64,000 bases of DNA from an uncultured delta proteobacterium (GTDB lineage Bacteria; Myxococcota; Myxococcia; Myxococcales; 40CM-4-68-19): the NCBI GenBank assembly GCA_903911145.1, contig CAIWCD010000041.1, forward strand, positions 62,001 through 126,000, given 5' to 3'. Position 1 is the stretch's first letter. Each line of letters starts with the position of its first letter. Both the position numbers and the translations under genes were made by a program. The notes below the pieces were generated by a model, which worked only from the letters and a program-made list of their open reading frames with translations, had not been told where the DNA came from and searched no databases. This document shows, piece by piece, positions 14,199 through 59,089 of the stretch.

Positions 14199-14684
14199 AT
14201 GTCTGCCAAGAGTGGTGCGCCTCCCAAGGGCGGCCCGCATATCCAGCTGATCAGCAAGAATCGTCGCGCGCTGTTTGATTACAGCGTCGAGAGCCGCGTC
14301 GAATGCGGTCTGCAGTTGCTCGGCACCGAGGTGAAAAGCCTGCGCGCCGGTACGGCGCAGCTCTCGGATGCCTATGCGGTTGGCCAGCGCGGCGAGCTGG
14401 TCTTGATGAACGCGAATATCCCCATCTATGCGCCTGCCGGGCCGCTCTCGAATCATGCGCCGAAGCGGACACGCAAGCTGCTCGTGCATCGGCGCGAGCT
14501 CGATAAGATTCTCGAGCAGCAGAAGAAGGACGGCTACGCGCTGGTGCCGCTCTCGCTCTATTTCAAGGACGGCAAGGCGAAGCTCGAGCTGGGGATCTGC
14601 AAGGGCAAGCAGAATATCGACAAGCGCGAGACGATCGCTGCGCGCGATGCCAAGCGCGAGATCGCGCGCGCGCAGAAGAAGTAA
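14199..14684 (+). CDS. smpB: SsrA-binding protein SmpB
   Basis: The 161-residue SmpB binds the tRNA-like domain of tmRNA and delivers it to stalled ribosomes for trans-translation. Typical blocks are SKNRRALFDYSVESRVECG, LLGTEVKSLRAG, NANIPIYAP and the C-terminal tail DKRETIAARDAKREIARAQ that enters the mRNA channel. It lies 4.9 kb from the host ssrA gene. A prophage-borne tmRNA 32 kb further on would also depend on this protein unless the phage carries its own SmpB; none is seen in the window. Confidence 0.96.
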   Translation: MSAKSGAPPKGGPHIQLISKNRRALFDYSVESRVECGLQLLGTEVKSLRAGTAQLSDAYAVGQRGELVLMNANIPIYAPAGPLSNHAPKRTRKLLVHRRELDKILEQQKKDGYALVPLSLYFKDGKAKLELGICKGKQNIDKRETIAARDAKREIARAQKK

Positions 14685-19545: not shown

Positions 19546-19910
19546 GGGGGCGAACCGGTTTCGACGAGGGCACAGAACCTTTCAGCGCATGCCGGGGATG
19601 CTTGGAACCTCGTTAAAAAACCGGGCAACGCAACAAACGCCAACGACAACGTTGAGCTCGCGCTCGCCGCCTAAAGCGGTCCGCACGCGGGAACCTGGAG
19701 CCCCGCCTATGGCGCCAGTCATTCTCGTCAAAAAAGTAGGCTGGTCTAACGTGGAGCTTCGACGGCGTTAGACGAGATTCAGTCGGAGATGGTCCAGCGG
19801 GAAGAGTGCCCGCGTTCGATTCGCTGGATGACGATAAATCACGGGACACGCATGTAGTGCTGACAGGGAAAGTTCTTTCGGACGCGGGTTCGATTCCCGC
19901 CGCCTCCACC
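19546..19910 (+). ncRNA. ssrA: Host transfer-messenger RNA (tmRNA)
   Basis: tmRNA rescues stalled ribosomes with SmpB. The mature 5' end GGGGGCG pairs with CGCCTCC at the 3' end to form the 7-bp acceptor stem. The conserved ACCGGTTTCGACGAGG D-loop-like segment follows the 5' strand, and the T arm is GCGGG-TTCGATT-CCCGC. The resume codon is most likely GCC at 19639. The tag frame reads ANDNVELALAA and stops at TAA (19672-19674). The gene encodes the discriminator A and CC but not the last A of CCA, which must be added enzymatically. The prophage integrase gene starts 59 bp beyond the 3' end, showing that the tmRNA 3' end is the integration site. Confidence 0.96.
19884..19910 (+). other. Probable attL core in the ssrA T arm and acceptor stem
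   Basis: The 3' end of ssrA (T arm to acceptor) directly borders the integrase gene and lower-GC phage DNA. Tyrosine integrases commonly use tRNA or tmRNA 3' ends and restore the gene from attP. The second copy (attR) lies beyond the right edge, so the exact core length cannot be measured here. Confidence 0.6.
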
Positions 19911-19945
19911 TTTTACGTTCGTAAAATCAAATATTTACGGGTGAC

Positions 19946-19968: not shown

Positions 19969-21123
19969 TTAGATTCTCTCCTCTGAAGCCGGCCGAGCGA
20001 TCGCGATCGCCTGGACCTGCTTGCAGAGCGTCGCCCAGCCCATTGACGTGTAGGCGTCGATCACGTCCCCGGTCGCGCCGTGCGTGACGAGGCGCAAGAT
20101 CTCCCGATCGGCGCCGCCCTCTCGCGCCAGCGTGATCATCGTGCGGCGCAGATCGTGGAAGCGGCGGCGGCGGAAACCCAGCATCGCGAGGTCGCGCAGC
20201 AGACGTTTGTAGTTGTCGTGGTCCGCGCGCATACCGCCGAACTCGATGCGCGGCCCGCGGTTGGTCGGCATGACGTGCGGCACCACGATGTCAGTGGCGG
20301 TCGGCGCGCGCCCGAATTCCCGCGCCCAGCCAGATAGTTTCCACTCGGCGAGAATTGCAGCGAGGGCAGGGTGGATGGGCACCCAGCGCTCAACGCCTGT
20401 CTTGGTCTCGCCGGTGTCGTAGCTGGTGAGCACCACGATCCTGTTGAGCGGCTCGAGCCCCGTCTTGATTTGGCCCCATCGCAGGCCCGCAACCTCGCCG
20501 CTGCGCAACCCAGCCAGGCCGGCGATGGCGTAGAGCACCCGTCGGTCCTGCGGCACGCGCCCATCCCAGATCAGCGCCGCCAACTCGGACTCGGAGTAGA
20601 TCGCGCCCTCGCGCCAGCCCTTCACCTTGTCGCGCTTCTTCCCGATGTGGTGGTGCGTGAGGATGCATGGGCTGGCATCGATGAGCCCGGCGATCACCGC
20701 CTCGCGGAATAGCGCGCGAACTACGCTGTAGATGTTGATCACCGAGCGCGGGGCGAGGTCGTGCGCTCGCGCCTTGTCGATCATCGACTTGACGTGGCGG
20801 GCTCGGACGTCGGCGATGAGCATGTCGCCGATGGCGGGATAGACCCAGGTCCGCAGGCGGCTCTCGTCATCGCGGACCGTGCGGGTATTCCGATCCTCGA
20901 TGAACTTCTTACCGAACGACTGCACCGTTGGAGGGGCGCCCGGAGCTGCTCCCATCTCGAGCCCCGCATCAATCTGCTCCTGCGTCTTCTTCTGCAGCCG
21001 CTTCGCTTGGTCTTCTTCGCCTATCCGGAACGGGGTGGACTGGAGCTTCCATTTGTTCGGGCCGACGTGCAGCACCATCCACAGCTTTGATCCGCGCGGA
21101 TAGATCGCGTCGCCTCTGGCCAT
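19969..21123 (-). CDS. int: Prophage tyrosine-recombinase integrase
   Basis: A 384-residue tyrosine recombinase. An N-terminal arm-binding and SAM-like core-binding region (about residues 60-150) is followed by the catalytic domain. Probable catalytic residues are Arg207 (GLRSGEVAGL), Lys241, His323 and Arg326 (HDLRRT), His348 (VTHGATGDV) and Tyr358 (AYTSMG). The start MARGDAIYPRG at 21123 lies 5 bp after the excisionase-like gene on the same strand. The protein would integrate the phage into the 3' end of ssrA. Confidence 0.93.
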   Translation of the reverse strand: MARGDAIYPRGSKLWMVLHVGPNKWKLQSTPFRIGEEDQAKRLQKKTQEQIDAGLEMGAAPGAPPTVQSFGKKFIEDRNTRTVRDDESRLRTWVYPAIGDMLIADVRARHVKSMIDKARAHDLAPRSVINIYSVVRALFREAVIAGLIDASPCILTHHHIGKKRDKVKGWREGAIYSESELAALIWDGRVPQDRRVLYAIAGLAGLRSGEVAGLRWGQIKTGLEPLNRIVVLTSYDTGETKTGVERWVPIHPALAAILAEWKLSGWAREFGRAPTATDIVVPHVMPTNRGPRIEFGGMRADHDNYKRLLRDLAMLGFRRRRFHDLRRTMITLAREGGADREILRLVTHGATGDVIDAYTSMGWATLCKQVQAIAIARPASEERI

Positions 21124-21128
21124 TAGAA

Positions 21129-21479
21129 TCACCTTCGAGCTGCGAGTGCTCGCGCGGCGGCTTGTCTCGCGAGGGTGCTGATATCCACGACGGCCGGGCT
21201 GCGTTTCCTGCGTCCGAGCCAGCCGTCCAAATCCACTGGGGCGATGACCCATTCGCGCCCGCCTTCGGGATGCGAGGCTCGCAGCGCGCCTGCGCGGATC
21301 GCCCGGCGAACGGTATCTGGCGCGCGGTGCGCCACCTTCGCCGCCTCGGGTACCGAGAGGCCGACGTTCGGGTCGAGCGAGACCTGGCCGCCCGACCGCT
21401 CGGCGCCCAGGATGCGAGGCAGCTCCTCACGGAGCACCTTGCGCACCGCCTGCTCGATCTCTTCGGCGAGCGCGCTCAC
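21129..21479 (-). CDS. Helix-turn-helix excisionase-like protein
   Basis: A 116-residue protein with a MerR/excisionase-type HTH (LSVPEAAKVAHRAPDTVRRA, followed by a GWLGRRK tail). Its position directly upstream of int suggests a recombination directionality factor; this is inference. The GTG start overlaps the stop of the ASCH-like gene (GTGA). Confidence 0.65.
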   Translation of the reverse strand: MSALAEEIEQAVRKVLREELPRILGAERSGGQVSLDPNVGLSVPEAAKVAHRAPDTVRRAIRAGALRASHPEGGREWVIAPVDLDGWLGRRKRSPAVVDISTLARQAAARALAARR

Positions 21480-32839: not shown

Positions 32840-35460
32840 ACGACCTCAAGCGCGACTGGACTTGCGAGCGCCTCCTGGCTCTCGCGCGCAGCGAAGGTTT
32901 GCCTTCGACGCGGGCGCGCCGCTTCGGCTGCCCTGCGCGCTGCTCCGATTCCGGCGACACCGTCGCAGTCAGTGAGACCACCAGCGGCGCTCTGTGGAAC
33001 TGCCACCGGTGTGGCATCGGCGGCAGCGTGATCGATCTGCTTCAGCATACCCGCGGCCTCGATGTCGCCGGAGCGTTGCGGGAACTCGGCCCGCTCTCCA
33101 ACGTCGTGCCGATGCGCCCGCCCGCGCCCGCGCGCGAGACCCCTGACGCCGCGCAGCTCTGGGAGACGCTGGCGCTCACCGACCTGGCTGGCGTCGATTA
33201 CCTGCGTTCGCGCGGACTCGATGGGGCGCCCGCCGTCCGGTTCAACATTGGCAACAGCGGGAATCGCTGGCTCGACCAGCGCGCCCGCGAAGGCTACCGG
33301 CTGGCGCTCGCGCTCTTCGGCGTCGACGGCTCCATCGTCTCCCTGCAACTGCGCTCGGTGGTGGTGGGCGTACCAGCGAAGGACGCGAAGCGCTCGCTCG
33401 CGGGCGTCACCTATCCCAAGGAGGGCGTTGCGATGGGCGACGTCGGCTGGGCGCGCACAGCCGAGCGCGTCTACCTGGCCGAAGGGATCGCCGACACGCT
33501 CGCGCTGCAACTCGCTGGCGTTCCGGTCATCGGTGCTCCCGGTGTCGACCAGTTGAAGCGACTGCTCAACTTCCTCGGCGACGTCGATGGCCGCGAGGTC
33601 GTGCTCTGTCCGCAGAACGACCCTCATGAGAAGAGCCAGAGCGCGTTCGCCTCGCTCGCCGGCAAGCTGGCTGACCAGGGCGCGCGCGTACTCGAGCTGC
33701 TGACGCCGGCGCCGCACAAGGACCCTGCCGACTGGCTCAAGGCGATCGGCCGCGCGGCCTTCGCTGCTGCGGTGGCGCAGGCGCCCCGCTCCCGGGAACG
33801 CGCTCGTGAGCCGGACAGTGATGATGGCGATCGCGAGCTGGCTGAGGTGGTGCAGCTGGACCCAGGCCTACCCGATATCCGCATCACCGTGCAGCAGCAT
33901 CTGGTCAACGACGCAGCTGCCCGCGCGCTCGGGAGAGATGACGACCTCTTCCAGCGCGCCGGTCTATTGGTCCACGTCATCCGCTCACCCGACAAATCGA
34001 AGACGACCGGCCTTCAGCGTCCCCCAGCGGCTCCCCACATCAAACCACTGCCACTGGCCGTCCTGCGCGAGCGACTGACGGCGGTGGCCAGCTGGTCGAA
34101 GTTCAACAAGACCGAGCACGCCTGGATGCCGGCGCATCCGCCCGACTGGTCAGTCGCAGCTCTTCACGCGCGCGGCACCTGGATGGTGGTGAGGCCGATC
34201 GCCGGTGTCGTCGAAGTGCCGGTGCTCCGGCCCGATGGGTCCGTTCTCGACGAGCCCGGCTACGACGACTCCACTGAGCTGCTCTTCGAGCCGAGCGCGG
34301 AATACCTGCCGGTGCCGGAGCAGCCGACGCTCGCCGAGGCAAAGGCGGCGATGGCCGAGCTGCTGGAGATTGTCGCCGACTTTCCCTTCGAGCGTCCGGA
34401 GCACCAATCCGCCTGGGTCGCGGCGCTGCTCACGCCCTTCGCGCGGCACGCCTTCTCTGGGCCGACGCCGCTGACGCTTATCGATGCGAACAGCCGCGGC
34501 GCCGGCAAGTCTCTACTCGCTGACCTTATCTCTCTCGTCTTCTGCGGGAGGCCGATGGCGAGGATGAGCTTCACCGACGACGACGCGGAGATGGCCAAGC
34601 GCGTGATGTCGATCGCACTCGCCGGAGATCCTCTGGTGCTCTTCGATAACGTCGAGGGGCTCCTCGGTGGTCAGACGCTTAACAAGACGCTGACCGCGGA
34701 GACGGTGCGCGACCGCCTGCTCAACACTAATGATGCGCCCGAGGTCCCAATCACCACGCAATGGTTGGCGACCGGCAACAACGTCCTGCTCTTTCCAGAC
34801 ACCACCCGGCGCACGCTGCACGTGCGGCTTGCTACCCAACTCGAGAAGCCAGAGGAGCGCGAGGGATTCCAACACGCTGACATTCGCGCATGGGTGCGCG
34901 CCGAGCGCCTGCGCTTGGTTCGGGCAGCCCTCACCGTCCTGCGCGCGTACACCGCTGCCGGCAGTCCAGATCAGAATCTCAAGCCATGGGGCTCATTCGA
35001 GGGCTGGTCGCGGATGATCCGCCACGCGCTCGTCTGGGTTGGCCTTCCAGACCCAGGCCTCACCCGCGAGGAACTCACCTCCGGAGCGGACACCGACGCG
35101 GAGCTGGCCGACCAGTTGGTTGTCGGGTGGAATCAGCTCGACGTGATGGGCGGTGGGTACACGGTTCGCGAAGCGCTCAAAAGGGTCGAAGAGGAGCCGA
35201 GGGACCTGGCTGACCTCAAGGAAGCGCTGGATGCCCTCTGCAGCGGGAAGCCACCCACGGTTCGAATGGTGTCCAACCGTCTAAAGAGATTCAGAGATCG
35301 AGTCGTCGGAGGGAAGCAACTGCACATGGAAAACGACCGCGACCACTTTGCAAGGTGGAGCGTCAGGAAGGTCGAAGTGCGGACTCTGCGGACTCTTGCG
35401 GACTCTTCTCAAACCCAGAGGGTTGAAAATTTCTTCTCTAAGAATCCAGGTGACGCATGA
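32836..35460 (+). CDS. Primase-helicase fusion protein
   Basis: An 874-residue replication protein. Cys32, Cys36, Cys56 and Cys59 form a CHC2-type primase zinc finger. A TOPRIM-like region follows (residues 210-265: VYLAEGIADTLALQLAG, VLCPQNDP). The second half carries a helicase-type ATPase with Walker A SRGAGKS near residue 555 and Walker-B-like PLVLFDNVEG near residue 600, then a segment like phage DUF3987/D5-like helicases. It would prime and unwind phage DNA. Its last 60 bases include one arm of an unusual inverted repeat, and its stop overlaps the next start (ATGA). Confidence 0.83.
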   Translation: MNDLKRDWTCERLLALARSEGLPSTRARRFGCPARCSDSGDTVAVSETTSGALWNCHRCGIGGSVIDLLQHTRGLDVAGALRELGPLSNVVPMRPPAPARETPDAAQLWETLALTDLAGVDYLRSRGLDGAPAVRFNIGNSGNRWLDQRAREGYRLALALFGVDGSIVSLQLRSVVVGVPAKDAKRSLAGVTYPKEGVAMGDVGWARTAERVYLAEGIADTLALQLAGVPVIGAPGVDQLKRLLNFLGDVDGREVVLCPQNDPHEKSQSAFASLAGKLADQGARVLELLTPAPHKDPADWLKAIGRAAFAAAVAQAPRSRERAREPDSDDGDRELAEVVQLDPGLPDIRITVQQHLVNDAAARALGRDDDLFQRAGLLVHVIRSPDKSKTTGLQRPPAAPHIKPLPLAVLRERLTAVASWSKFNKTEHAWMPAHPPDWSVAALHARGTWMVVRPIAGVVEVPVLRPDGSVLDEPGYDDSTELLFEPSAEYLPVPEQPTLAEAKAAMAELLEIVADFPFERPEHQSAWVAALLTPFARHAFSGPTPLTLIDANSRGAGKSLLADLISLVFCGRPMARMSFTDDDAEMAKRVMSIALAGDPLVLFDNVEGLLGGQTLNKTLTAETVRDRLLNTNDAPEVPITTQWLATGNNVLLFPDTTRRTLHVRLATQLEKPEEREGFQHADIRAWVRAERLRLVRAALTVLRAYTAAGSPDQNLKPWGSFEGWSRMIRHALVWVGLPDPGLTREELTSGADTDAELADQLVVGWNQLDVMGGGYTVREALKRVEEEPRDLADLKEALDALCSGKPPTVRMVSNRLKRFRDRVVGGKQLHMENDRDHFARWSVRKVEVRTLRTLADSSQTQRVENFFSKNPGDA

Positions 35461-35515
35461 AAAATCTAGGGCAGTGGAGTCCAGAAGAGTCCGCACGAGT
35501 CCGCAGAGTCCGCAC
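35377..35515. repeat. 34-bp inverted repeat made of 9-bp iterons, candidate phage origin
   Basis: The left arm (35377-35410) and right arm (35482-35515) are inverted copies with 32 of 34 positions matching. Each arm contains three copies of GAGTCCGCA or its complement. The 71-bp centre is AT-richer than its surroundings and includes a GAAAATTTCTTC-type tract. The arms lie in the end of the primase gene and the start of the next gene. Confidence 0.8.
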
Positions 35516-36747: not shown

Positions 36748-37614
36748 TCATGATAGCTCGTATACGCCGCAGCACGCCCGCATCGTGTTGTCGTGAATAT
36801 CGAGCACCGGGCGAATTTCGTCGGCACCGGATAGGTTCTCGAGCATCTGGTATCCCCCCGCGAGATTCCACGCGACGGGCAAGCCCAGCCGCCGACACGA
36901 CTCAAACACCGCCCGGTCGCGCCGATACAATTGCTCCGTCGTGAGGAACCCTCCGAGCGGATCGTCGATATGTGGATCGGCCCCGGCTTGATAGAGCACC
37001 AGTTGACTCCCGCGCTTTGCCATTCCCTCGAGGATGATCGGAATCCGCGCCAGGAACCGCGTCGCGTCGGCGGCGGAGAAGCCGTGCTCGCCGGCCGTGT
37101 AATGGTCGACCCAATCAATCCCGAGGCGCTCGAGGATATCGTCGGTGCCATCGCCGTAATGCTCGTCGAAATCGAGGATCGCGACTCGTCGGACATCGTG
37201 CCGGTCGTGCAGCAGGCATGCCGCGACCATCAGGCCATTGAAAGTGCAGAACCCTTGCGTCGTGGAATATCCGGCATGATGAAACCCCGAGCACGGCGCG
37301 ACGGCGACGCGCCGGTCCTCAAGCGCGCGCACTGCCGCCGTGTACATGGCTCCCGAAGTATATGGAAGCGCACTCGCCACAGCGGGCGAGCGGTTGCTGA
37401 ACCCGTTGTCCCGCCGGCCCGCGAGGATGTCGTCGACCATGCCGCGATCGTGCGCGAGCGCGAGATCCTCGGCGGGCAACGCGGGCGGCGCAATGATCTC
37501 GATTGGGAATCCTCGCTCTCGCCACGATGCGACGACAGGGGCGGGCTTGCCCGCCGACGGCGAGTAGGCGCCGGAGTCCGCGACCATCTCGGCGCTGTAG
37601 TAGACGGGGATCAT
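36748..37614 (-). CDS. Histone-deacetylase-fold amidohydrolase
   Basis: A 288-residue protein of the arginase/deacetylase superfamily. His112-His113 (GFHHAGYS), the metal-site motif DFDEHYGDGTDD (Asp148, Asp150, His152), GADPHIDDPLGG (Asp213) and AGGYQ are all present, as in acetoin-utilisation and acetylpolyamine amidohydrolase proteins. It would remove acetyl groups from a small molecule or a protein. It is on the minus strand in the prophage accessory region, 5 bp downstream of a short membrane peptide gene, and is unusual cargo for a phage. Substrate unknown. Confidence 0.82.
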   Translation of the reverse strand: MIPVYYSAEMVADSGAYSPSAGKPAPVVASWRERGFPIEIIAPPALPAEDLALAHDRGMVDDILAGRRDNGFSNRSPAVASALPYTSGAMYTAAVRALEDRRVAVAPCSGFHHAGYSTTQGFCTFNGLMVAACLLHDRHDVRRVAILDFDEHYGDGTDDILERLGIDWVDHYTAGEHGFSAADATRFLARIPIILEGMAKRGSQLVLYQAGADPHIDDPLGGFLTTEQLYRRDRAVFESCRRLGLPVAWNLAGGYQMLENLSGADEIRPVLDIHDNTMRACCGVYELS

Positions 37615-41154: not shown

Positions 41155-42432
41155 ATGGCCAAGCGCCAGAGCCCTGCAGCGGTCTGGTTGCCTATTGGCG
41201 ACCTGAAGCCCTGGGGCAAGAACCCGCGCAAGAACGATGGCGCGGTCGCCAGCGTGGCGGAATCCATCAAGCGATTCGGCTTCGCGGCGCCGATCGTCGC
41301 GCGGCTCGAGGACCATCAGATCATCGCTGGGCATACGCGCTGGCTGGCGGCGCAGAAACTCGGGCTCGAGCAAGTTCCGGTGCGGCTGGTGGATCTGGAT
41401 CCGGCCGACGCGCAGCTGCTGGCGCTGGCGGACAATAAGCTCGGGGAGATCGCCGAGTGGGACGATGAGCAGCTTGGCCAGGTGCTCGAGCAGCTCAAGC
41501 TCGACGGCGCCGACGTCCTGGACAGCGGGTTCGACGAGGCGGAGGTCGAGCAACTGCTCGGCGAGCTGCACTCGGAGGACCTGGCGGACGTCGAGGAGCA
41601 GCCGCTGCCGGCGCCGCCGAAGAAGCCGCAGAGCGCGCGCGGCGAGGTGTACCAGCTCGGGCCCCACCGTCTCATGTGCGGCGATTCCACAAATGCTGAT
41701 GACGTGCTCAAGCTGATGGCCGGGGAGCGCGCGGCGCTGTGCGCGACGGACCCGCCATATCTGGTTGATTACGACGGCGATAATCATCCGCAGTCGTTCG
41801 AGCGGGTGAAGAAGGGCAAGGACAACAACAAGAGCTGGGACGCGTATATCGATCCCAGCTCGAGCGTGGAGTTCTTCTCGAGCTTCCTGCGCGTCGCCAT
41901 CGCGCATGCGCTCGTGGAAAACCCGGCCTTCTACCAGTGGCACGCGTCGCGGCGGCAGGCGCTGGTGGAGGCGGCGTGGACGGAGAACGGGCTCCTCTTC
42001 CACCAGCAGATTATCTGGGTGAAGCCGCGGCCGATCCTGACGCGCAGCCATTTCATGTGGCAGCACGAGCCGTGCTTCTACGGTTGGATCGAAGGGAAGC
42101 CACCGACGCAGCGCCCGCCGGCGAGCGGGGAGTGCACGTCGGTATGGACTATCGACGGGGAGAACGACGGGATTCATCCGACTCAGAAGCCGCTCGAGGT
42201 GTTCACCAGGCCGATCGGCTACCACACCGACGCTGGCGCGCTCGTCTACGAGCCGTTCAGCGGCTCGGGCAGTCAGCTCATAGCGGCAGCGAAGACCGGA
42301 CGGCGGTGCTACGCGATGGAGCTGGCGCCGGAGTTCGTGGACGTCGCGCGTATCCGCTGGACCAACTTTGCGCGAGCGGCTGGGATCGACGCGGGCCCGG
42401 GCGCGATGGAGGCAGAGGAGCCGTCGCAATAG
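41155..42432 (+). CDS. ParB-domain / N6-adenine (or N4-cytosine) DNA methyltransferase fusion
   Basis: A 425-residue protein. Residues 10-110 are a ParB/Srx-like domain (IGDLKPWGKNPRKND, VARLEDHQIIAGHTRWLAA). Residues 160-410 are a beta-class methyltransferase with catalytic ATDPPYLVDY near residue 199, IHPTQKP and the SAM-binding YEPFSGSGSQLIAA. Phages use such fusions to modify their DNA against restriction. Its C-terminal 22 codons recur at 43310 in a diverged, interrupted form, showing that the gene end was duplicated or replaced. It lies upstream of the small terminase gene. Confidence 0.88.
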   Translation: MAKRQSPAAVWLPIGDLKPWGKNPRKNDGAVASVAESIKRFGFAAPIVARLEDHQIIAGHTRWLAAQKLGLEQVPVRLVDLDPADAQLLALADNKLGEIAEWDDEQLGQVLEQLKLDGADVLDSGFDEAEVEQLLGELHSEDLADVEEQPLPAPPKKPQSARGEVYQLGPHRLMCGDSTNADDVLKLMAGERAALCATDPPYLVDYDGDNHPQSFERVKKGKDNNKSWDAYIDPSSSVEFFSSFLRVAIAHALVENPAFYQWHASRRQALVEAAWTENGLLFHQQIIWVKPRPILTRSHFMWQHEPCFYGWIEGKPPTQRPPASGECTSVWTIDGENDGIHPTQKPLEVFTRPIGYHTDAGALVYEPFSGSGSQLIAAAKTGRRCYAMELAPEFVDVARIRWTNFARAAGIDAGPGAMEAEEPSQ

Positions 42433-42972: not shown

Positions 42973-43257
42973 TCAGCCTTGCTCGCGGTGCCGCCGAAGA
43001 GCAGCCACCAGCCGAGGCGTCGGACGCGGCGGGTGGGAGACGGCTTTCAGGAAGGCGTCGCGATCCTTGCCACGAAGCTCCATGCGTTCGTGATCCTCGA
43101 GTACGCGCCGCGCACCCTCGTAGGCGAGGTCGCCTGCGGCGAGACCGGAGATGGCGGTCGCTTGCTCGATCAATTTTCGCACGGACGGCGCGACGCGAAG
43201 CTCCATCCGCTCCGTCTTGTGCTCGCGCCTGGGGCTTGCTCTAGCCGAAGTTGCCAT
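42973..43257 (-). CDS. DUF1778 antitoxin, TacA-like
   Basis: A 94-residue ribbon-helix-helix antitoxin (TERMELRVAPSVRKLIEQA, then ISGLAAGDLAYEGARRVLED) with a C-terminal tail that would cover the toxin active site. A perfect 8-bp inverted repeat lies nine bases before its start. Antitoxin-first order with the GNAT toxin is canonical. Confidence 0.83.
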   Translation of the reverse strand: MATSARASPRREHKTERMELRVAPSVRKLIEQATAISGLAAGDLAYEGARRVLEDHERMELRGKDRDAFLKAVSHPPRPTPRLVAALRRHREQG

Positions 43258-43265
43258 GGGGATTT

Positions 43266-43288
43266 ATGTACGGCGCTCCACCGTACAT
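43266..43288. promoter_or_regulatory. Operator palindrome of the TacA/TacT-like operon
   Basis: ATGTACGG and CCGTACAT are perfect inverted repeats around a 7-base centre. They lie nine bases upstream of the antitoxin start, where an autoregulatory complex should bind. Confidence 0.65.
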
Positions 43289-43309
43289 GTCAAGCCAACC
43301 GCGGGGCCC

Positions 43310-43420
43310 CGCATCCGCTAGACCAATTTCGCGCGCGGCGCCGGCATCGACGCGGGCCCCGGCGCCATGGAGGACCCAAGTGCCGCGTCCGACCAGCATT
43401 CCACCGCGCCTCCACGCTGA
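43310..43420 (+). pseudogene. Remnant of a methyltransferase 3' end
   Basis: This stretch aligns with 42346-42432: 53 of 65 positions match, mostly differing at third codon positions. The reading frame encodes TNFARGAGIDAGPGAME, as in the intact gene, but the Trp codon before it is TAG here. The frame runs on to a TGA at 43418, overlapping the start of the small terminase gene. It is the tail of a diverged, earlier methyltransferase gene. Confidence 0.75.
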
Positions 43421-43850
43421 GGTCCTCGCCCGCGCTGGCGAAGGCCTGAACTGCGCGGACATCGCCTCCTGGCTCGGCCGGGAGCACAACGTCAAGACGC
43501 ACGAGAGTTCCGTGAAGCGGCTCCTGCGAAAGGTCGCTGCCGAGCGGGCCCCCATCGCGAAGGCGGTGGTGACGGAGCAACTCAGCAAGACGTTGACCGT
43601 CGACCTGTCCTCGATGAACGCGCTGCTCAAGCGGTCGGTGAGCAACGAGGCTCGGTGTACGCAGCTGATCAAGGCGGCCGGCGATGAGCCGGTGCTTCAG
43701 CTCCGCGCCATGGAGCAGATGCGCCGTGAGCGCGCTGAGCAGCGCTCGCTGCTGGAGCTGCGGTTCCGATTGTCCGGCGCCGACAGCAACGACGATGACG
43801 TGATGCCGCGCGGGCTGGTCGTGCTGCCGGCAGAGACCCCTGACGAATAG
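43380..43850 (+). CDS. Putative terminase small subunit or HTH protein
   Basis: A 156-residue protein with an N-terminal HTH (GLNCADIASWLGREHNVKTH, VKRLLRKVAA) and a long helical rest (LLKRSVSNEARCTQLIKAA, MEQMRRERAEQRSLLELR). Position between a ParB-methyltransferase and the late genes fits a small terminase subunit, but similarity is weak. GTG at 43380 is chosen because the frame upstream belongs to the methyltransferase remnant. Its 3' end recurs at 44250. Confidence 0.5.
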   Translation: MPRPTSIPPRLHAEVLARAGEGLNCADIASWLGREHNVKTHESSVKRLLRKVAAERAPIAKAVVTEQLSKTLTVDLSSMNALLKRSVSNEARCTQLIKAAGDEPVLQLRAMEQMRRERAEQRSLLELRFRLSGADSNDDDVMPRGLVVLPAETPDE

Positions 43851-43923
43851 GAGCGCCGGACCTCGGCAGCTCCTAGAGTTCGCATCCGCCCGGTGCTCGA
43901 CATCCACACCGGCCGTTCGCGCC

Positions 43924-44157
43924 TCATTGCGATTCGTAGACGGCGACGTACGCCCTCCGTACATGTGCATGCGGGTTCAGATCGGTAAGCGATTGGACCC
44001 AGTAGAGCACCAACAGGACAATTGCCAGGAATCCAATGATCCGCTGGGACCTCCGCTGAGACTGAGGCTGCACCGGGGTGCGCCAGCCGCATCTCGGACA
44101 GGCACTCGCCGAGTCGGATACGTGCTGATCACAGTCCCGGCACGAGAGGAGAGCCAT
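43924..44157 (-). CDS. Zinc-ribbon membrane protein
   Basis: A 77-residue protein. Two CxxC-type pairs (LSCRDCDQHV and CPRCGWRT) form a zinc ribbon, followed by a membrane helix (RIIGFLAIVLLVLYWVQSL). Such short proteins are common cargo with unknown function. The gene sits in reverse orientation between two copies of the small-terminase gene end. Confidence 0.65.
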   Translation of the reverse strand: MALLSCRDCDQHVSDSASACPRCGWRTPVQPQSQRRSQRIIGFLAIVLLVLYWVQSLTDLNPHAHVRRAYVAVYESQ

Positions 44158-44249
44158 CTGACACCGCCTTCCAGGCCATAGGCAGACTATTCGACTCGCT
44201 GGTTGTGACTGCGGCGCCTGCTCGCCGAGGACGCGAAAGCGCAACTTCC

Positions 44250-44308
44250 GGATTGTCCGACGATGACGTGATGCCGCGCGGCCTGCGGCAGAGACCCCTG
44301 ACGAATAG
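44250..44308 (+). pseudogene. Remnant copy of the small-terminase gene 3' end
   Basis: The bases ending in the TAG at 44306 match the end of the gene at 43380-43850 (GACGATGACGTGATGCCGCG and CAGAGACCCCTGACGAATAG are shared), with two short internal deletions relative to it. The copy retains the following AGGAGC ribosome-binding site used by the next gene. Confidence 0.75.
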
Positions 44309-44320
44309 GAGCATCGCGAT

Positions 44321-44513
44321 GAACGGTCCCGATATATGGCACTACCTGCTCGCCGGGCTCGCGGCGGTCCTCTCGATGATGTCCGGAATCGTCTCGTGGT
44401 TCGTCGTGCGGCTCGTCGCGAAGGTAGACAAGCAGCTCGACAAGCACGCGGAGATGCTCCAGGAGCACGACCGCGCGATTATCAGGCTGCAGGCAGTGGA
44501 CGCGGCACGGTGA
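44321..44513 (+). CDS. Small membrane protein, holin-like in outline
   Basis: A 63-residue protein with one membrane helix (YLLAGLAAVLSMMSGIVSWF) and a charged C-terminal helix (KVDKQLDKHAEMLQEHDRAI). An AGGAGC ribosome-binding site lies six bases before the ATG and directly after the duplicated terminase end. A role in lysis or as a membrane anchor is possible but unproven. Confidence 0.6.
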
Positions 44514-45004: not shown

Positions 45005-46165
45005 CTACGGCACATGCTGCCAACCCTTTGGATCCTCCGGCGGCTGCCACTGCATCATCGCTGTCTCGGCGTCTTGCCTGCTCGCCACGTAGAAGCGAGG
45101 AATGGGGTCGAAGTCCTGCAATGAAACGGTGTTGCCCTGGGCAGGGTTCTCTAACACCCTCGCCGAGATGCTAAGCCCAAGCTCTGGCCTCGACCGATGG
45201 ATGCCCCAGTTGAACGGCAAGAGCGCCACAAGTCGCTCGCGAGCGCGGGTTGCGTCTCGACGTGTACCGACCAGCATCCCTTCCTCCATCGGCCCCAGAT
45301 ATGCGTCACCGGGTGGCTCCGCCCCACCGTAATGGATTGGCACATGAATCTTTCGCGCACCGTAGAACGCCTCCACCACATCTTCGAAGCCGCCCATCAC
45401 GCCATCGAGATCAAGTGCGACGATAATTGGACACTTGTATGCCCGAAGCTTCGCGTTAATCGCGCTGGTGACGCGGTCCGCGTCGTTCCCGTGGATCATT
45501 CTCATGGGCCATCCGACTACGGCCGGAAAAACTGGGTTACTGTTCCCGTCGTGCACTTCATAGGCAACGAAGACGCCATGTGACTTGAAGCTCTGCGTTC
45601 CAACCGGGAGAGGTCGCGTCTTTAGAACCTCCTCGACGTGTGCTCGGAAAGGCTTCAGCGAGGCATCTTCGCTCACTTGCAGCACGTTGATGTGAAGGGG
45701 GCTTGAGGTGCGGATTCCGCGTAGCGCACGGCTCACCAGTAGCCGCGGTCGTTGGCCTTCGTTCGAGCGACCCTCCACCCGCCGTATCTCGACGACGCAC
45801 TCCAACTCGCCCTTCCTAATGCGGAGGTCTGGGGTCTGTGTTCCAACGAAGGGCTCGAACTCCACGTCCCATCCTTGAGCCTGCAACATCTCGGCGAGGA
45901 GGATCCCCCCAACCGCAGACTTCACCTGACCGTCGCTTGCGACAACTGCGATGGGGCCCAGGACTCTCGCTCGTCGGGGCTCGGGGACCAGCGCCGCCAC
46001 CCGCTCAATTTGTCCTCTGATCCGCGCGCCCTCTTCGCCGGCCATCCCGGCCCATTGCAGGACGAGGGGGTCCAAAGCGTCCCGTGGTTCGCACGCCCGC
46101 GCGAGGATTTCGTCGGTGAAGACAAGATGCGACACGGCCACGAGCTTAGCAGCCCCCCCCGACAT
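45005..46165 (-). CDS. Uncharacterised prophage protein next to the phage tmRNA
   Basis: A 386-residue protein. ATG at 46165 is preferred; upstream the frame enters the tmRNA gene. A central TQTPDLRIRKGELECVVEIR segment looks like a degenerate PD-(D/E)XK core (Asp, then Glu-x-Arg), and CPIIVALDLDGVMGGFEDVV is beta-strand-rich. The C-terminal part contains LVALLPFNWGIHRSRPELGL. No family is recognised. It is transcribed away from the tmRNA and interrupts the late operon. Confidence 0.55.
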   Translation of the reverse strand: MSGGAAKLVAVSHLVFTDEILARACEPRDALDPLVLQWAGMAGEEGARIRGQIERVAALVPEPRRARVLGPIAVVASDGQVKSAVGGILLAEMLQAQGWDVEFEPFVGTQTPDLRIRKGELECVVEIRRVEGRSNEGQRPRLLVSRALRGIRTSSPLHINVLQVSEDASLKPFRAHVEEVLKTRPLPVGTQSFKSHGVFVAYEVHDGNSNPVFPAVVGWPMRMIHGNDADRVTSAINAKLRAYKCPIIVALDLDGVMGGFEDVVEAFYGARKIHVPIHYGGAEPPGDAYLGPMEEGMLVGTRRDATRARERLVALLPFNWGIHRSRPELGLSISARVLENPAQGNTVSLQDFDPIPRFYVASRQDAETAMMQWQPPEDPKGWQHVP

Positions 46166-46227
46166 GCACCCGAACTCGACCCCAATCTCGCTCTGGAACG
46201 GCGGCAGCGCCGCACTGAATCGCTTTG

Positions 46228-46545
46228 GGCACGAACAGGTTTCGACGAGGACGAAGAGAGAACTGCAGCGCGCCCCGGATGCATGGAACCGGGTCAGAAA
46301 ACCGTGCACCTCACAAAAGCCAACGACAACGTCGTTTCGCTGAATGAGTACCGCAAGACCCGTATGGTGAAGCCCAGCGGCCGCAGCATCGGCAGCGCCC
46401 GCCTCGCGGCGGCGTAGTTCCGCGAGTGGTGGAGGTGGCTCCGGCCGCCCCGTAGCAGGCTCGCCCGCAGCTCAAGCGGGACACGCGCGTAGACGCACGA
46501 TCAACCCGTTCTCGGACCCGAGTTCGATTCTCGGCGTGTCCACCA
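46228..46545 (+). ncRNA. Phage-encoded tmRNA with a 32-residue tag frame
   Basis: All tmRNA landmarks are present. GGGCACG at the 5' end pairs with CGTGTCC at the 3' end (7 bp), followed by the discriminator A and an encoded CCA. The AACAGGTTTCGACGAGG D-loop-like block matches that of the host tmRNA; the T arm is CCGAG-TTCGATT-CTCGG, preceded by TTCTCGGA as in canonical tmRNAs. The resume codon is GCC at 46319, preceded by AAAA. The tag begins ANDNVVSLNEY and ends SARLAAA before a TAG at 46415, giving 32 residues against 11 for the host gene, and is rich in Arg and Lys. It lies between the small terminase region and the large terminase gene and is oriented with the late genes. It would need SmpB from the host. 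Confidence 0.9.
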
Positions 46546-46566: not shown

Positions 46567-46917
46567 ATGAACTATGCGATCGGCCGCGAGGCCCATGTCT
46601 GCGCGCCCCTGCACGTCCAGGATGTCGCCGAGCCAGGTGGGCAGAGGCTCCGCCCCCTCTCGTCCGCCCTCGCACGCGCGAGCGCGCAGTGGGACCGCCG
46701 CGTCGGCCCGAGCGTTGTGCCCGTCGCGCTGCGGCGACCGGAGCCCGTGGGCGCCGGCGTCGCGCGGCGCCCCGCGGCCTCCGTGCCGCTGACGTTGCAG
46801 CCCATCTCCATCCTCCGCCCGGTCGCCCAGACCGCCCGCGAGCGGCTCAACGAAATTCTCTCGCTCTTCACGCCCGCCGCGCGGCGCCTTGCTTGCGCCG
46901 ACCCGAGAGAACGATGA
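46567..46917 (+). CDS. Uncharacterised late-region protein
   Basis: A 116-residue Arg/Ala/Pro-rich protein. GAGG lies five bases before its ATG, and it starts 22 bp after the phage tmRNA. A C-terminal helix (ARERLNEILSLFTPAARRLA) is possible. No family recognised; gene status is likely but not certain because the minus strand is also open. Confidence 0.4.
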   Translation: MNYAIGREAHVCAPLHVQDVAEPGGQRLRPLSSALARASAQWDRRVGPSVVPVALRRPEPVGAGVARRPAASVPLTLQPISILRPVAQTARERLNEILSLFTPAARRLACADPRER

Positions 46918-46973
46918 ACGGAACACTGCTGAGTCCGGAGGCCGCGGCCAATGCGGCATCCGAGCGCGAGTAG
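46914..46973 (+). CDS. 19-residue linking peptide candidate
   Basis: A 19-codon frame (MNGTLLSPEAA...) whose ATG overlaps the stop of the previous gene and whose TAG is two bases before the terminase ATG. It may only serve translational coupling. Confidence 0.25.
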   Translation: MNGTLLSPEAAANAASERE

Positions 46974-46975
46974 TC

Positions 46976-48493
46976 ATGGCATCCAAGCGTCCGTGCCTGC
47001 GTTGCGGCCATGGCGGTGACGATTACCCCGAGCACCCAGGCCAGGCTTGCCGTGCGCGACTTGGCTCTGAATCCATGGCACCCGTGTGCGGCTGCTCTGC
47101 CGTCTGGCAGCCTCACTCCGGTCCGCAACATCGATTCATTACAACCAGCGCCACAGAGGTCCTCTATGGCGGCGCGGCAGGCGGCGGGAAGAGTGCCGGC
47201 CTGATCGCCATCCCGCTCCGCTGGCTCGCGCAGAAGAATTTCCTGGCTCTCGTCCTGCGCCGCGACACGACGCAACTCGGGGACCTGATTGCCAAGGGCC
47301 GCGATCTGTACCCACTGCTCGATGGCAAGTCCCGCTCCGACGGCGCGTCGGTATGGTGGACGTTCCCGAGCGGTGCGCGCGTGTGGTTCACGCATTGCCT
47401 CCGCGCGGACGACGTTGCCCGATTCGATGGATATGAGATCTCCGTCGCGCTCTTCGACGAGCTGACTCACTTCGAGGAGAGCCAGTACCTCAAGATCCGC
47501 GCGCGCATTCGCAGCCCGAACCCGGCGATCCCGGCCTATGCACGGTCGACCACGAACCCTGGCGGCGCCGGCCACGCGTGGGTGTTTGCTCGGTGGGCTC
47601 CCTGGCTGGACCCGGAATGCAAAGTCCCAGGTCTGCCCGATCGGATCGACGAGAGCGGAGCCAAACTCCCGCCCATGCCGAGTGGCGCGGTGCTGCACTA
47701 CATCCGCGATGGCGAAACGGATCTGTGGGTACCGAAGGGCACGCTCGACGCCGACGGCAACAAGGCGCAAGGGCGCACCTTCATCGCCGCCCGCCTCGAC
47801 GACAACCCGTCGATCGACTCGAGCTACAAGGCGACGCTGAACGACCTCGACCGCGTCCGCCGTGCGCAGTTGAAGGATGGAAACTGGCTGGTCAGTTACT
47901 CGAGTGGTTCGCTCTTTCAGCGCCATTGGTTCGACATCGTCGAGGCGGCGCCGGCGGAGATTGTCGCGCGCATTCGCTATTGGGACCGGGCCGCGACCGA
48001 GCCGCATGCAACCAACAAGGATCCAGACTGGACGCGCGGCCTCAAGCTGGCGAAGGCGCGCGGCGGCCTCTGGTACGTCGAGGACGTGGCGAGCATTCGC
48101 GCCCGGCCGTTCGCCGTCTCCGCGCTGATTCGGCAGACGGCCATTCTGGATGGGCCCGACTGCCGCATTGGCATCGAGCAGGACCCGGGACAGGCCGGCG
48201 TCGCCGAGGCAGAGGATTACGTTCGCCTGCTCGCCGGGTTCCATGTCTCAACGCCGAGGCCCACCGGCGACAAGGTGACGCGCGCGGGACCGGTATCGGC
48301 GCAGGCGGAGGCGAAGAATATCAAGCTCGTCAAAGGACACTGGAACAGAGCCTTCCTCGACGAGCTCGAGGTCTTCCCGACTCCGGGTATCCACGACGAC
48401 CAGGTGGACGCACTGAGCGGCGGATTCAACTCACTCGCAGAGCCATCCGACGCCGAGAGGCTGGCGGCCATGCTCTCAGGCATGCGGAGATAA
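46976..48493 (+). CDS. Terminase large subunit
   Basis: A 505-residue terminase. An N-terminal Cys-rich segment (CLRCGHGGDDYPEHPGQAC) precedes the ATPase with Walker A GGAAGGGKSAG near residue 65 and Walker B VALFDELTHF near residue 160. The C-terminal RNase-H-like nuclease has YWDRAATEP, IGIEQDPGQAG and the final Asp in HDDQVDALSG. It packages phage DNA into proheads. Its start is placed two bases after a short upstream frame. Confidence 0.93.
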   Translation: MASKRPCLRCGHGGDDYPEHPGQACRARLGSESMAPVCGCSAVWQPHSGPQHRFITTSATEVLYGGAAGGGKSAGLIAIPLRWLAQKNFLALVLRRDTTQLGDLIAKGRDLYPLLDGKSRSDGASVWWTFPSGARVWFTHCLRADDVARFDGYEISVALFDELTHFEESQYLKIRARIRSPNPAIPAYARSTTNPGGAGHAWVFARWAPWLDPECKVPGLPDRIDESGAKLPPMPSGAVLHYIRDGETDLWVPKGTLDADGNKAQGRTFIAARLDDNPSIDSSYKATLNDLDRVRRAQLKDGNWLVSYSSGSLFQRHWFDIVEAAPAEIVARIRYWDRAATEPHATNKDPDWTRGLKLAKARGGLWYVEDVASIRARPFAVSALIRQTAILDGPDCRIGIEQDPGQAGVAEAEDYVRLLAGFHVSTPRPTGDKVTRAGPVSAQAEAKNIKLVKGHWNRAFLDELEVFPTPGIHDDQVDALSGGFNSLAEPSDAERLAAMLSGMRR

Positions 48494-53477: not shown

Positions 53478-53607
53478 GCCGTAGCCGTCACCCTCGCGCG
53501 CTGGCGTCCGTCCGCGCGCACCAACCCCACCAGCCAACCCCTCGGCATCGCCGGCCGCGCTCATGCGCAGGCAGGCCGGCGCCGCTTTGCCTCCAGAGGA
53601 TACACAG

Positions 53608-54690
53608 ATGGGAAATCTTCTCTCGCTCGACAAGTTCAAGAAGTGGCTGAATGACGGCTGCGCCAAGCTCCGCGATGCGGGTATGCGGCGCGACGCGGCC
53701 GAGGTGATCTCGCTCGACGAGTACCACTCGTTCGTCGACTCCGGACTCCTCACGCATATCCCCAAGATCGACGCGGGCGAGAATATGTTCTTCGCGCGCC
53801 AACTCGAGGCGTTCAAGGCCAAGCTGTTCAATACGAAGTATCCCGAGTTGCTGGCGCGGCTGCTGCTTCCGGTCAGCTACGACGCCGGCCCGGGCGCGAA
53901 GAAGATCACCTATCGCGCATACACGCTGGTTGGTATCGCGCAGGCAATTACCAACTATGCGGCGGACCTGGCGCGCGCCGATGCGTTCGGGCAGGAGTTC
54001 ACCAGCAACGTCCGCGACTATGGCGAGGCGTTCGGTTGGAACATCCGCGAGATCCAATCCAGCGCGCAGGCGGAGCGCTCCGGTATCGGGCCGACCATGC
54101 CGCTGCAGACCGGTCGCATGATGGCCTGCCGCCGCGCGCATGAGGTTAACCTCGACAACATCGCTTTCGCGGGCGATGTGGCGTTCGGGCTCATTGGCCT
54201 GAATAACATCCCGAGCGCGAATACCTATGCTGTCCCGGCCGGCGCCGCGGGCTCCACGCTGTGGGCCAACAAGACGCCGGACGAGATGCTCGCGGACCTC
54301 TTCGCGATGGAGTCGACGCCGCTGAGCAACAGCTCCGAGGTGGAGTATGCGACGCGCTTGCTGCTCCCTCCCGCGAAGTACCGCATGGCGGCATATACCC
54401 GCGTGTCGATCGCGAGCGATACCAGCGTCCTCGATTACTTCCTCAAGCAGTCGCGCTACATCAAGGACGTGCGCGGCTGGTGGAAGCTCACCGGTGCGGG
54501 CTCGGGCGGCCTCGACCGCATGCTGAGCTATCGCCCGGATAGCGACACGATCTCCCTCGAGATCCCGGAGGAGTTCACCACCCTCCCGCCCGAGCCGCGC
54601 AACCTCGAGGTGGTCGTCAACACCACGATGGCGATCGGCGGGGTGATCTGCGAGTTCCCGCTCAGCGTCACCTACGGCGACGGGATCTGA
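53608..54690 (+). CDS. Major capsid protein, DUF2184 family
   Basis: A 360-residue DUF2184-type major capsid protein. Typical parts are HIPKIDAGENMFFARQLEAF, TYRAYTLVGIAQAITNYAAD, FAGDVAFGLIGLNNIP and the C-terminal TLPPEPRNLEVVVNTTM. ATG at 53608 follows CCAGAGGA; upstream the frame is spacer. It would form the icosahedral head. Confidence 0.87.
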   Translation: MGNLLSLDKFKKWLNDGCAKLRDAGMRRDAAEVISLDEYHSFVDSGLLTHIPKIDAGENMFFARQLEAFKAKLFNTKYPELLARLLLPVSYDAGPGAKKITYRAYTLVGIAQAITNYAADLARADAFGQEFTSNVRDYGEAFGWNIREIQSSAQAERSGIGPTMPLQTGRMMACRRAHEVNLDNIAFAGDVAFGLIGLNNIPSANTYAVPAGAAGSTLWANKTPDEMLADLFAMESTPLSNSSEVEYATRLLLPPAKYRMAAYTRVSIASDTSVLDYFLKQSRYIKDVRGWWKLTGAGSGGLDRMLSYRPDSDTISLEIPEEFTTLPPEPRNLEVVVNTTMAIGGVICEFPLSVTYGDGI

Positions 54691-57547: not shown

Positions 57548-59089
57548 ATGCCGCTGAACGATTTCGTGCAGGTGAACATCACCACGCAGGCCGTTGCGCC
57601 CTCGCAACAGTCGTTCGGCGTGCCGCTCATCTTGGGCAGTTGCATCAACGCGCTCGCCGCATTCGGTGCGTCGCTTCTGCGCGTCTACACCAGCCTCGCC
57701 GGCATGGTCAGCGACGGCTTCGCCGCGACCGATCCTGAGTACCTCGCCGCGCAGGCCCTCTTCTCGCAGTCGCCGACGCTCCCGCAGCTCGTCGTCGGCC
57801 GCCGCACCAACAAGCCGACGCAGAAGCACGCGCTCACGGTGCTGAGCGGCGCTGACTCGACCTGGGCGACCAGCACCGCCTACACGCTGGGCAAGAAGGT
57901 AGTCCTCGGCGGCAACCTCTACATCTGCACCACCGCCGGCACCTCCGCGGAGAGCGGCGGCCCGACAGGCACGGGCAGCGGCATCACCGACAACACCGCA
58001 GTCTGGGCATATGTCCGCCCGAACGCTGGCACCGTTTACACCGCGACCATCAACGGCGTGGCGAAGAGCTACACCTCGAGCGCGACTGACAAGAATAGCG
58101 ACATCGCCACCGCCCTCGCGACCGCGATCGGAACGCCCACCGGGTTCGGCGCGGCCAGCGCATCGGCTGCGGTGGTCACTCTCACCGCGAGCGCCGCCGG
58201 CAACTGGTGCCGCGTTGCCGCGACCAACCCGAACGTCGACCTCGACCACCAGCAGACGCACGTCGACGCTGGCGTCGTCGCGGACCTCACCGCCATCCTC
58301 AACGTGGACGGCGGCTCGAGCTGGTACACGGTCACCGCGACCACGAGCAGCAACGCCGAGGTGGCGGCGCTCGCGGCCTACGTCGAGACGATCGGCAAGC
58401 TCTACCTGGCCGACTCGAACGACTCGACCATCCTCGGCAGCGGCTCGAGCGATATCGCCAGCACGCTCATCGCGAGCGCCTATGTTCGCAGCCCGATCTT
58501 CTATCACCCGGACAGCGGCGCATTCCTCGGCGCGGCGTCGGCAGGAAAGGCGCTTCCGCTCTCGCCTGGTGGTGGGATCTGGAAGTTCCTGCAGCCCAGC
58601 GGCGTCGCGACCACGTCCTTCAGCGCGAGCCAGCTGACCAATCTCAAAGCGAAGCTCGCGAACTGGCTCTACACGGTCGCGGGCGTGAACATCGTCGCGA
58701 ACGGCACGGTGCCGGCGAACGAGTGGATCGACACGGTCCGCGATCGCGATTGGCTCGCGAGCACCATCCAGACCGACTTCTTCAACGCGCTCCTCTCGCC
58801 GCCGTCCGCGGTGAACCAGGCGAACCCGGGCAACCAGGTGCCAGCGCTGGGCAAGATCCCCTACACAGATCCCGGCATCGCTGTGATGGAGGGCGTCCTG
58901 CGCTGCTCGCTGCAGAAGGGCGTCAACCAAAACGTGCTCGCCGCCACTCCGCCCCCGACGGTGACCGCGCCGCTCGCTGCGTCGATCAGCCCATCGGTGA
59001 AGGCCACGCGTGCGCTCACCCTCGCGTGGGGAGCCGAGCTGGCTGGGGCGATCCAATCGCTCACGTTGAACGGCTCGCTCTCGTTCTAG
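57548..59089 (+). CDS. Tail sheath protein, DUF3383 family
   Basis: A 513-residue contractile tail sheath of the DUF3383 group. Typical are the N-terminal QVNITTQAVAPSQQSFGVPL, PQLVVGRRTNKPTQK, EVAALAAYVETIGKLYLADS and the C-terminal VKATRALTLAWGAELAGAIQ. Its presence shows the phage has a myovirus-type contractile tail. Confidence 0.9.
   Translation: MPLNDFVQVNITTQAVAPSQQSFGVPLILGSCINALAAFGASLLRVYTSLAGMVSDGFAATDPEYLAAQALFSQSPTLPQLVVGRRTNKPTQKHALTVLSGADSTWATSTAYTLGKKVVLGGNLYICTTAGTSAESGGPTGTGSGITDNTAVWAYVRPNAGTVYTATINGVAKSYTSSATDKNSDIATALATAIGTPTGFGAASASAAVVTLTASAAGNWCRVAATNPNVDLDHQQTHVDAGVVADLTAILNVDGGSSWYTVTATTSSNAEVAALAAYVETIGKLYLADSNDSTILGSGSSDIASTLIASAYVRSPIFYHPDSGAFLGAASAGKALPLSPGGGIWKFLQPSGVATTSFSASQLTNLKAKLANWLYTVAGVNIVANGTVPANEWIDTVRDRDWLASTIQTDFFNALLSPPSAVNQANPGNQVPALGKIPYTDPGIAVMEGVLRCSLQKGVNQNVLAATPPPTVTAPLAASISPSVKATRALTLAWGAELAGAIQSLTLNGSLSF

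Follow-up and report, generated by a model that had tools for sequence, protein, structure and literature searches.

A shortened prophage tmRNA with a long basic tag that is conserved in a second temperate phage

Introduction

Why do phages carry tmRNA? Among 18,146 sequenced phage genomes, 402, or about 2%, have a gene for this RNA (PMC9004378), which corrects the initial annotation of the locus described here, where tmRNAs were said to be known from a few phages. Complete tmRNA genes are found in mycobacteriophages Bxz1 and Wildcat, Bacillus phage G, Streptomyces phages (for example, Sushi23), and the marine phage Melnitz (PMC4131195, PMC9004378). Known tmRNA tags span 8-35 aa (PMC8012679). 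Neither a phage tmRNA as such nor a tag of 32 aa as such is new when taken alone. Here, we investigated a prophage-borne tmRNA gene in a window of 64,000 nucleotides, the whole stretch of DNA that was analyzed. The novelty of this locus lies in a tag that is long, basic, and conserved, carried by a shortened tmRNA that is linked to the terminase of a temperate phage integrating at ssrA. Because this non-host tag is conserved in two diverged phages, the question of why phages carry tmRNA becomes testable.

Results

We found two tmRNA genes in the window, and nothing else in the 5.3 Mb genome scores above the cut-off of the Rfam tmRNA family RF00023 (gathering score, 47 bits). The first is host ssrA (19546..19911, plus strand; called by ARAGORN as 19546-19910; 188.8 bits), which encodes the tag ANDNVELALAA, 11 residues long as initially described. 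The same tag was read in 30 of 31 host tmRNAs across the order, the exception being ANDNVDFALAA. The second gene is on the plus strand at 46227-46545, is 319 nt long, and encodes its CCA. It had first been placed at 46228-46545, with an Infernal search against the tmRNA model proposed as the check. RF00023 matches it at 69.5 bits (E = 5.3e-25) over model positions 1-374, ARAGORN calls it as well, and the start moves one base upstream. The match covers the whole model, and the G3-U70 pair and T arm, the pseudoknot PK1 and resume codon, and the tag frame with its helix 5 are all present. A chance or false match is ruled out because both programs call the gene and a relative of it was found independently. 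Nor did integration create the gene by duplicating host ssrA: the two sequences differ along their whole length, and it is at the host gene that the attachment core is found. Among the matches listed for 145 genomes of the order, there was no other second tmRNA above the cut-off.

The element that carries this gene is a temperate myovirus. Its integrase, a tyrosine recombinase with Pfam and PHROG matches (19969..21252, minus strand), begins 58 bp behind host ssrA, and the attachment site is at the 3' end of that gene (core 19889-19910). A copy of the final 22 bases of ssrA is present on another contig, C27, with 25 of 26 bases matched, and marks a candidate attR. Host ssrA ends in CCU after the insertion and the candidate attR side has CCA, so the encoded CCA is replaced by phage sequence on integration (19889-19914). 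Replication genes occupy the prophage from 30 kb and are followed by terminase and structural genes; the contig ends, at about 66.7 kb on the scale of the window, before the prophage does. The tmRNA gene is placed between a gene pair and the terminase large subunit, TerL (46889..48493, plus strand; phrog_979, 3.7e-113). The pair encodes a helix-turn-helix, small-terminase-like protein (43251..43850, plus strand) and a short membrane protein that is holin-like by inspection of its sequence and is without a family match (44205..44513, plus strand). After the terminase come MuF-like and protease head proteins, the major head protein (53563..54690, plus strand; phrog_264, 4.1e-67), the tail sheath that marks the myovirus type (57548..59089, plus strand; phrog_205, 3.8e-73), the tape measure, and the baseplate hub. 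The tmRNA is therefore phage-borne, lying between the integrase and the terminase, head, and tail-sheath genes, and the myovirus late region named in the initial annotation does follow it. A divergent gene that starts near 46165 separates the upstream late genes from the tmRNA in the window, and no sigma-70-like promoter was found upstream of the phage tmRNA.

Several other features of the prophage may be recorded here. It encodes a histone-deacetylase-domain protein (window 36748-37614) and a ParB-like N-terminal domain fused to a DNA methylase (window 41155-42432). A 33-nt inverted repeat (97%; window 35377-35515), its arms 73 nt apart, spans a gene junction. Direct repeats of 28 and 27 nt (window 43790-44312) link the ends of two small genes upstream of the tmRNA and resemble a duplication.

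Is this tmRNA found in any other phage? A scan of 2.9 million viral contigs for the pattern UUCGACG-gap-ANDN returned 88 stretches, about half of them with an ARAGORN tmRNA. One belongs to IMGVR_UViG_3300045970_000924 (hereafter L191), a temperate phage of 65.7 kb with its own integrase, in which a tmRNA of 318 nt (2493-2810) scores 76.6 bits against RF00023. The late blocks of the two phages are colinear, and in both the tmRNA is directly upstream of TerL. TerL is 51% identical between them, the major head protein 74%, and most other proteins 37-55%. A homolog of the small-terminase-like protein (39.5% over 86 aa) is encoded upstream of the L191 tmRNA, and a gene comparable to the holin-like one sits directly upstream of it. 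In L191, only 8 bases separate the stop codon of the upstream gene from the start of the tmRNA, which suggests that the RNA is cut out of a late transcript. Apart from L191, no TerL relative had a tmRNA above the cut-off in the records examined, and relatives found through the major head protein had none in the flanks examined. Since 38 TerL-related viral records are without a long-tag tmRNA, it is inessential to this phage lineage. As far as the data show, the trait appears to be restricted to a small lineage, with two members within the data examined.

The RNA retains the elements expected of a tmRNA that can be charged with alanine. The 5' strand of the acceptor stem, GGGCACG (46227..46233, plus strand), pairs with CGUGUCC (46535..46541, plus strand), followed by A73 at 46542 and CCA at 46543-46545. 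The stem had been called a perfect 7-bp helix; all seven pairs form, but the third is G-U rather than Watson-Crick. This G3-U70 pair, present in both phage RNAs, is the expected alanine identity element. Its retention matters because E. coli tmRNA loses activity when the corresponding U is deleted (PMC10107115). The T arm (CCGAG-UUCGAUU-CUCGG, 46518..46534, plus strand), the D-loop-like block (the UUCGAC D-analog), and the encoded CCA are all present as first described, and UUCGAC, CCA, and the AAAA before the resume codon are kept in both phages. PK1 (CCCGG/CCGGG and UGCAUGG/CCGUGCA, 46274..46308, plus strand) precedes the leader CACAAAA, which is identical in both phages up to the resume codon GCC and places an A at position -4 of this alanine codon. 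In a helix-by-helix alignment of the two RNAs, every compared pair in the acceptor stem, T stem, H2, and PK1 is intact. Both sides of a pair have changed at two places in the acceptor stem (pairs 4 and 6), at four of the five pairs of the T stem, at one in H2, and at one in PK1, an A-U to U-A double change. Helix 5 (CUCGCGG, 46403-46409, with CCGCGAG, 46420-46426; plus strand) holds the UAG stop codon in its loop. The helix at this place in L191 has a different sequence (CCAGCU/AGCUGG), and in both phages the stop codon lies in or beside the loop.

Where the phage tmRNA departs from host ssrA is in the tag, 32 rather than 11 aa, and in what follows it. Both RNAs share a tRNA-like domain with G3-U70, a T arm, H2, PK1, a tag that starts with ANDN, and a stop codon at helix 5, in the manner of one-piece tmRNAs. 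Although its tag is 63 nt longer, the phage RNA falls about 47 nt short of the host RNA, because only about 66 nt, in L191 as well, lie between the tag and the closing of H2, where the host has about 180 nt. Two short hairpins (46434-46449 and 46464-46480, plus strand), also found in L191, stand at the place of the pseudoknots PK2-PK4, and a stem search after the tag gave no convincing pseudoknot common to both phages. PK2-PK4 are lost or unrecognizable in the phage tmRNAs, in which only about 66 nt remain after the tag. Several natural tmRNAs lack these pseudoknots or can do without them. Loss of the acceptor stem and pseudoknots in close relatives had been named at the outset as grounds for doubting the gene; L191 keeps the acceptor stem and PK1, whereas PK2-PK4 cannot be recognized.

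The tag reading frame called by ARAGORN (46319..46417, plus strand) has 32 codons followed by UAG and encodes ANDNVVSLNEYRKTRMVKPSGRSIGSARLAAA, about three times the length of the host tag. The L191 tag has 33 aa, ANDNVVSLKSYRSTRMVKPSGVVRSNAFQLAAA, and both carry a net charge of +4. The description of a long, basic tag beginning with ANDN and ending in RLAAA, an LAAA degron, is upheld and extends to a second phage; its length is not the novelty that the initial annotation took it for. Beyond ANDN, part of the conserved block reads VVSLNEYRKTRMVKPSG (46331..46381, plus strand), or VVSLKSYRSTRMVKPSG in L191. The two tags have in common the basic segment VVSLxxYRxTRMVKPSG, followed by a variable linker: residues 1-21 are identical at 18 of 21 positions (86%), residues 22-28 have diverged, and the terminal LAAA is kept. 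The only indel inside the tag is 3 nt, one codon, and is in frame; the indel just after the stop codon is 4 nt. At shared residues that have synonymous codons, 15 of 17 codons in the tag are identical, as against 54% in TerL (P ~0.003, binomial).

What has conserved this tag? RNA structure is unsupported as the cause, since folding of the tag RNA is not unusual (z = 0.68 and 0.24) and a consensus fold shows no convincing covariation inside the tag. The conservation, in two sequences, is compatible both with selection acting on the peptide and with an RNA gene that was exchanged recently; an exchange between phages could explain the high codon identity in place of such selection. The tag peptide has no match in Pfam, PHROGs, or the PDB, and the motif VVSLxxYRxxR occurs nowhere else in the 3.3 Mb of sequence examined. 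The same tag was absent from the rest of its own genome, 195 genomes of the phylum, the INPHARED phages, and two further scans of viral contigs, L191 excepted. The viral tags collected comprise 32 distinct sequences (L191 included; 31 outside the pair), with a median length of about 13 aa and a median charge of about -1, in a collection biased by a scan pattern that required an ANDN-like start.

Discussion

How might this phage tmRNA work? We consider it probable that the RNA is functional, relies on host SmpB, is expressed together with the late genes, and places a basic extension before an LAA-type degron. Because it has all the sequence features that alanylation, SmpB recruitment, frame choice, and termination are known to require, an active tmRNA that uses host SmpB is the simplest reading. 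No phage-encoded SmpB was found, the single SmpB of the genome being that of the host (14199..14684, plus strand; PF01668, 176.9 bits at C41:76250-76678, window 14250-14678). In the proposed pathway, a temperate myovirus resident at host ssrA would express a complete one-piece tmRNA from the head of its late terminase-head-tail block. The RNA would be charged with alanine by way of G3-U70 and delivered to stalled ribosomes by host SmpB and EF-Tu. Translation would restart at GCC in dependence on PK1 and the conserved A-rich leader, add an alanine and 32 further residues, and terminate at the stop codon held in helix 5. Both ends of the tag, the ANDN start (an adaptor-type site) and the C-terminal LAAA (a ClpXP-type degron), would keep their usual roles, with about 21 extra, phage-specific basic residues inserted between them. 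The host also encodes an SspB-like protein. We infer late expression, activity, and any effect of the basic segment on the handling of tagged proteins.

A more tentative proposal, and one we advance with some doubt, is that the basic segment is itself functional and directs the products of stalled ribosomes to a protease, adaptor, or location other than that used by the host tag. The most likely route would be a change in the choice of protease or adaptor; alternatively, the longer unstructured tail could be engaged faster. Long natural tags are also a feature of Mycoplasma and Mesoplasma tmRNAs. The account given in PMC8138137, citing Gur and Sauer 2008, has the Mesoplasma tag read by Lon, a precedent for altered handling. 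Those tmRNAs are bacterial and without sequence similarity to the phage RNA, and handling of the phage tag by Lon is hypothetical. In any event, rescued proteins would receive a virus-specific label, mass spectrometry could tell the phage tag from the host tag within a single cell, and the basic segment could be removed without touching the start of the tag or the degron. If the segment reroutes tagged proteins, this would be a natural viral re-programming of trans-translation in the late lytic phase, beyond mere duplication of the host system.

It is also possible, if not the account we favor, that the phage tmRNA works but that its extension is tolerated filler, with tagged proteins degraded as usual. 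The C-terminus is an ordinary LAAA, tags of this length lie within the recorded range, and other viral tmRNAs have long, unrelated tags. One of these, on viral contig L242 (2385-2727; 53.3 bits), has an acidic 32-aa tag, ANENDRSVTDEYVAAGLAELEAFANSNVLVAA; L242 is not a TerL relative, and its unrelated tag indicates that long phage tags arose more than once. Another, on contig L233 (complement(730-1101)), has a 23-aa tag that ends in EFRAAA and is followed by two stop codons. Filler would not be expected to remain identical at 18 of 21 N-terminal residues while TerL is only 51% identical and the neighboring linker has diverged. Like other phage tmRNAs, the present one is a complete gene within a phage genome; it differs from them in its tag of 32 or 33 aa with a charge of +4, in the conserved 17-residue insert, in its link to TerL, and in its residence in a temperate Myxococcota phage.

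Could the RNA instead act against host trans-translation? A decoy that titrates SmpB or AlaRS has been proposed for the RNA of mycobacteriophage DS6A, which consists of the tRNA-like domain only (PMC4131195, PMC11915505), and the region of downstream pseudoknots is cut down in the phage tmRNA. Both are phage-borne tmRNA derivatives. However, the DS6A inhibitor is without an mRNA-like part, and the present RNA has 319 nt and a frame of 32 codons, well beyond a tRNA-like domain without a tag frame. A decoy would have no need of PK1, the resume-codon context, an in-frame tag, or a stop-codon helix, yet all are kept in two diverged phages, and we regard this explanation as improbable.

Equally doubtful is the idea that a spare tmRNA covers the loss of host tmRNA when the phage integrates into or excises from ssrA. 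The integrase abuts host ssrA, the 22-bp core is common to the candidate attR, and excision of CP4-57 inactivates ssrA in E. coli (PMC10107115). Here, however, both sides carry an identical core, and the acceptor stem should therefore survive both integration and excision; only CCA/CCU differs, and CCA is unencoded in most relatives. Compensation would also leave the distinct, conserved tag unexplained. Least probable of all, to the point of being nearly dismissible, is a captured, functionless copy of host ssrA in decay: the Rfam score is below that of the host copy and PK2-PK4 are lost, but compensatory changes and an intact frame are kept in two phages.

A final observation concerns the surroundings of the integration site. 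Beside the candidate attR (C27 4081-15000) are a resolvase and a type I restriction-modification set whose HsdM has a helix-turn-helix; this restriction system could belong to a neighboring element.
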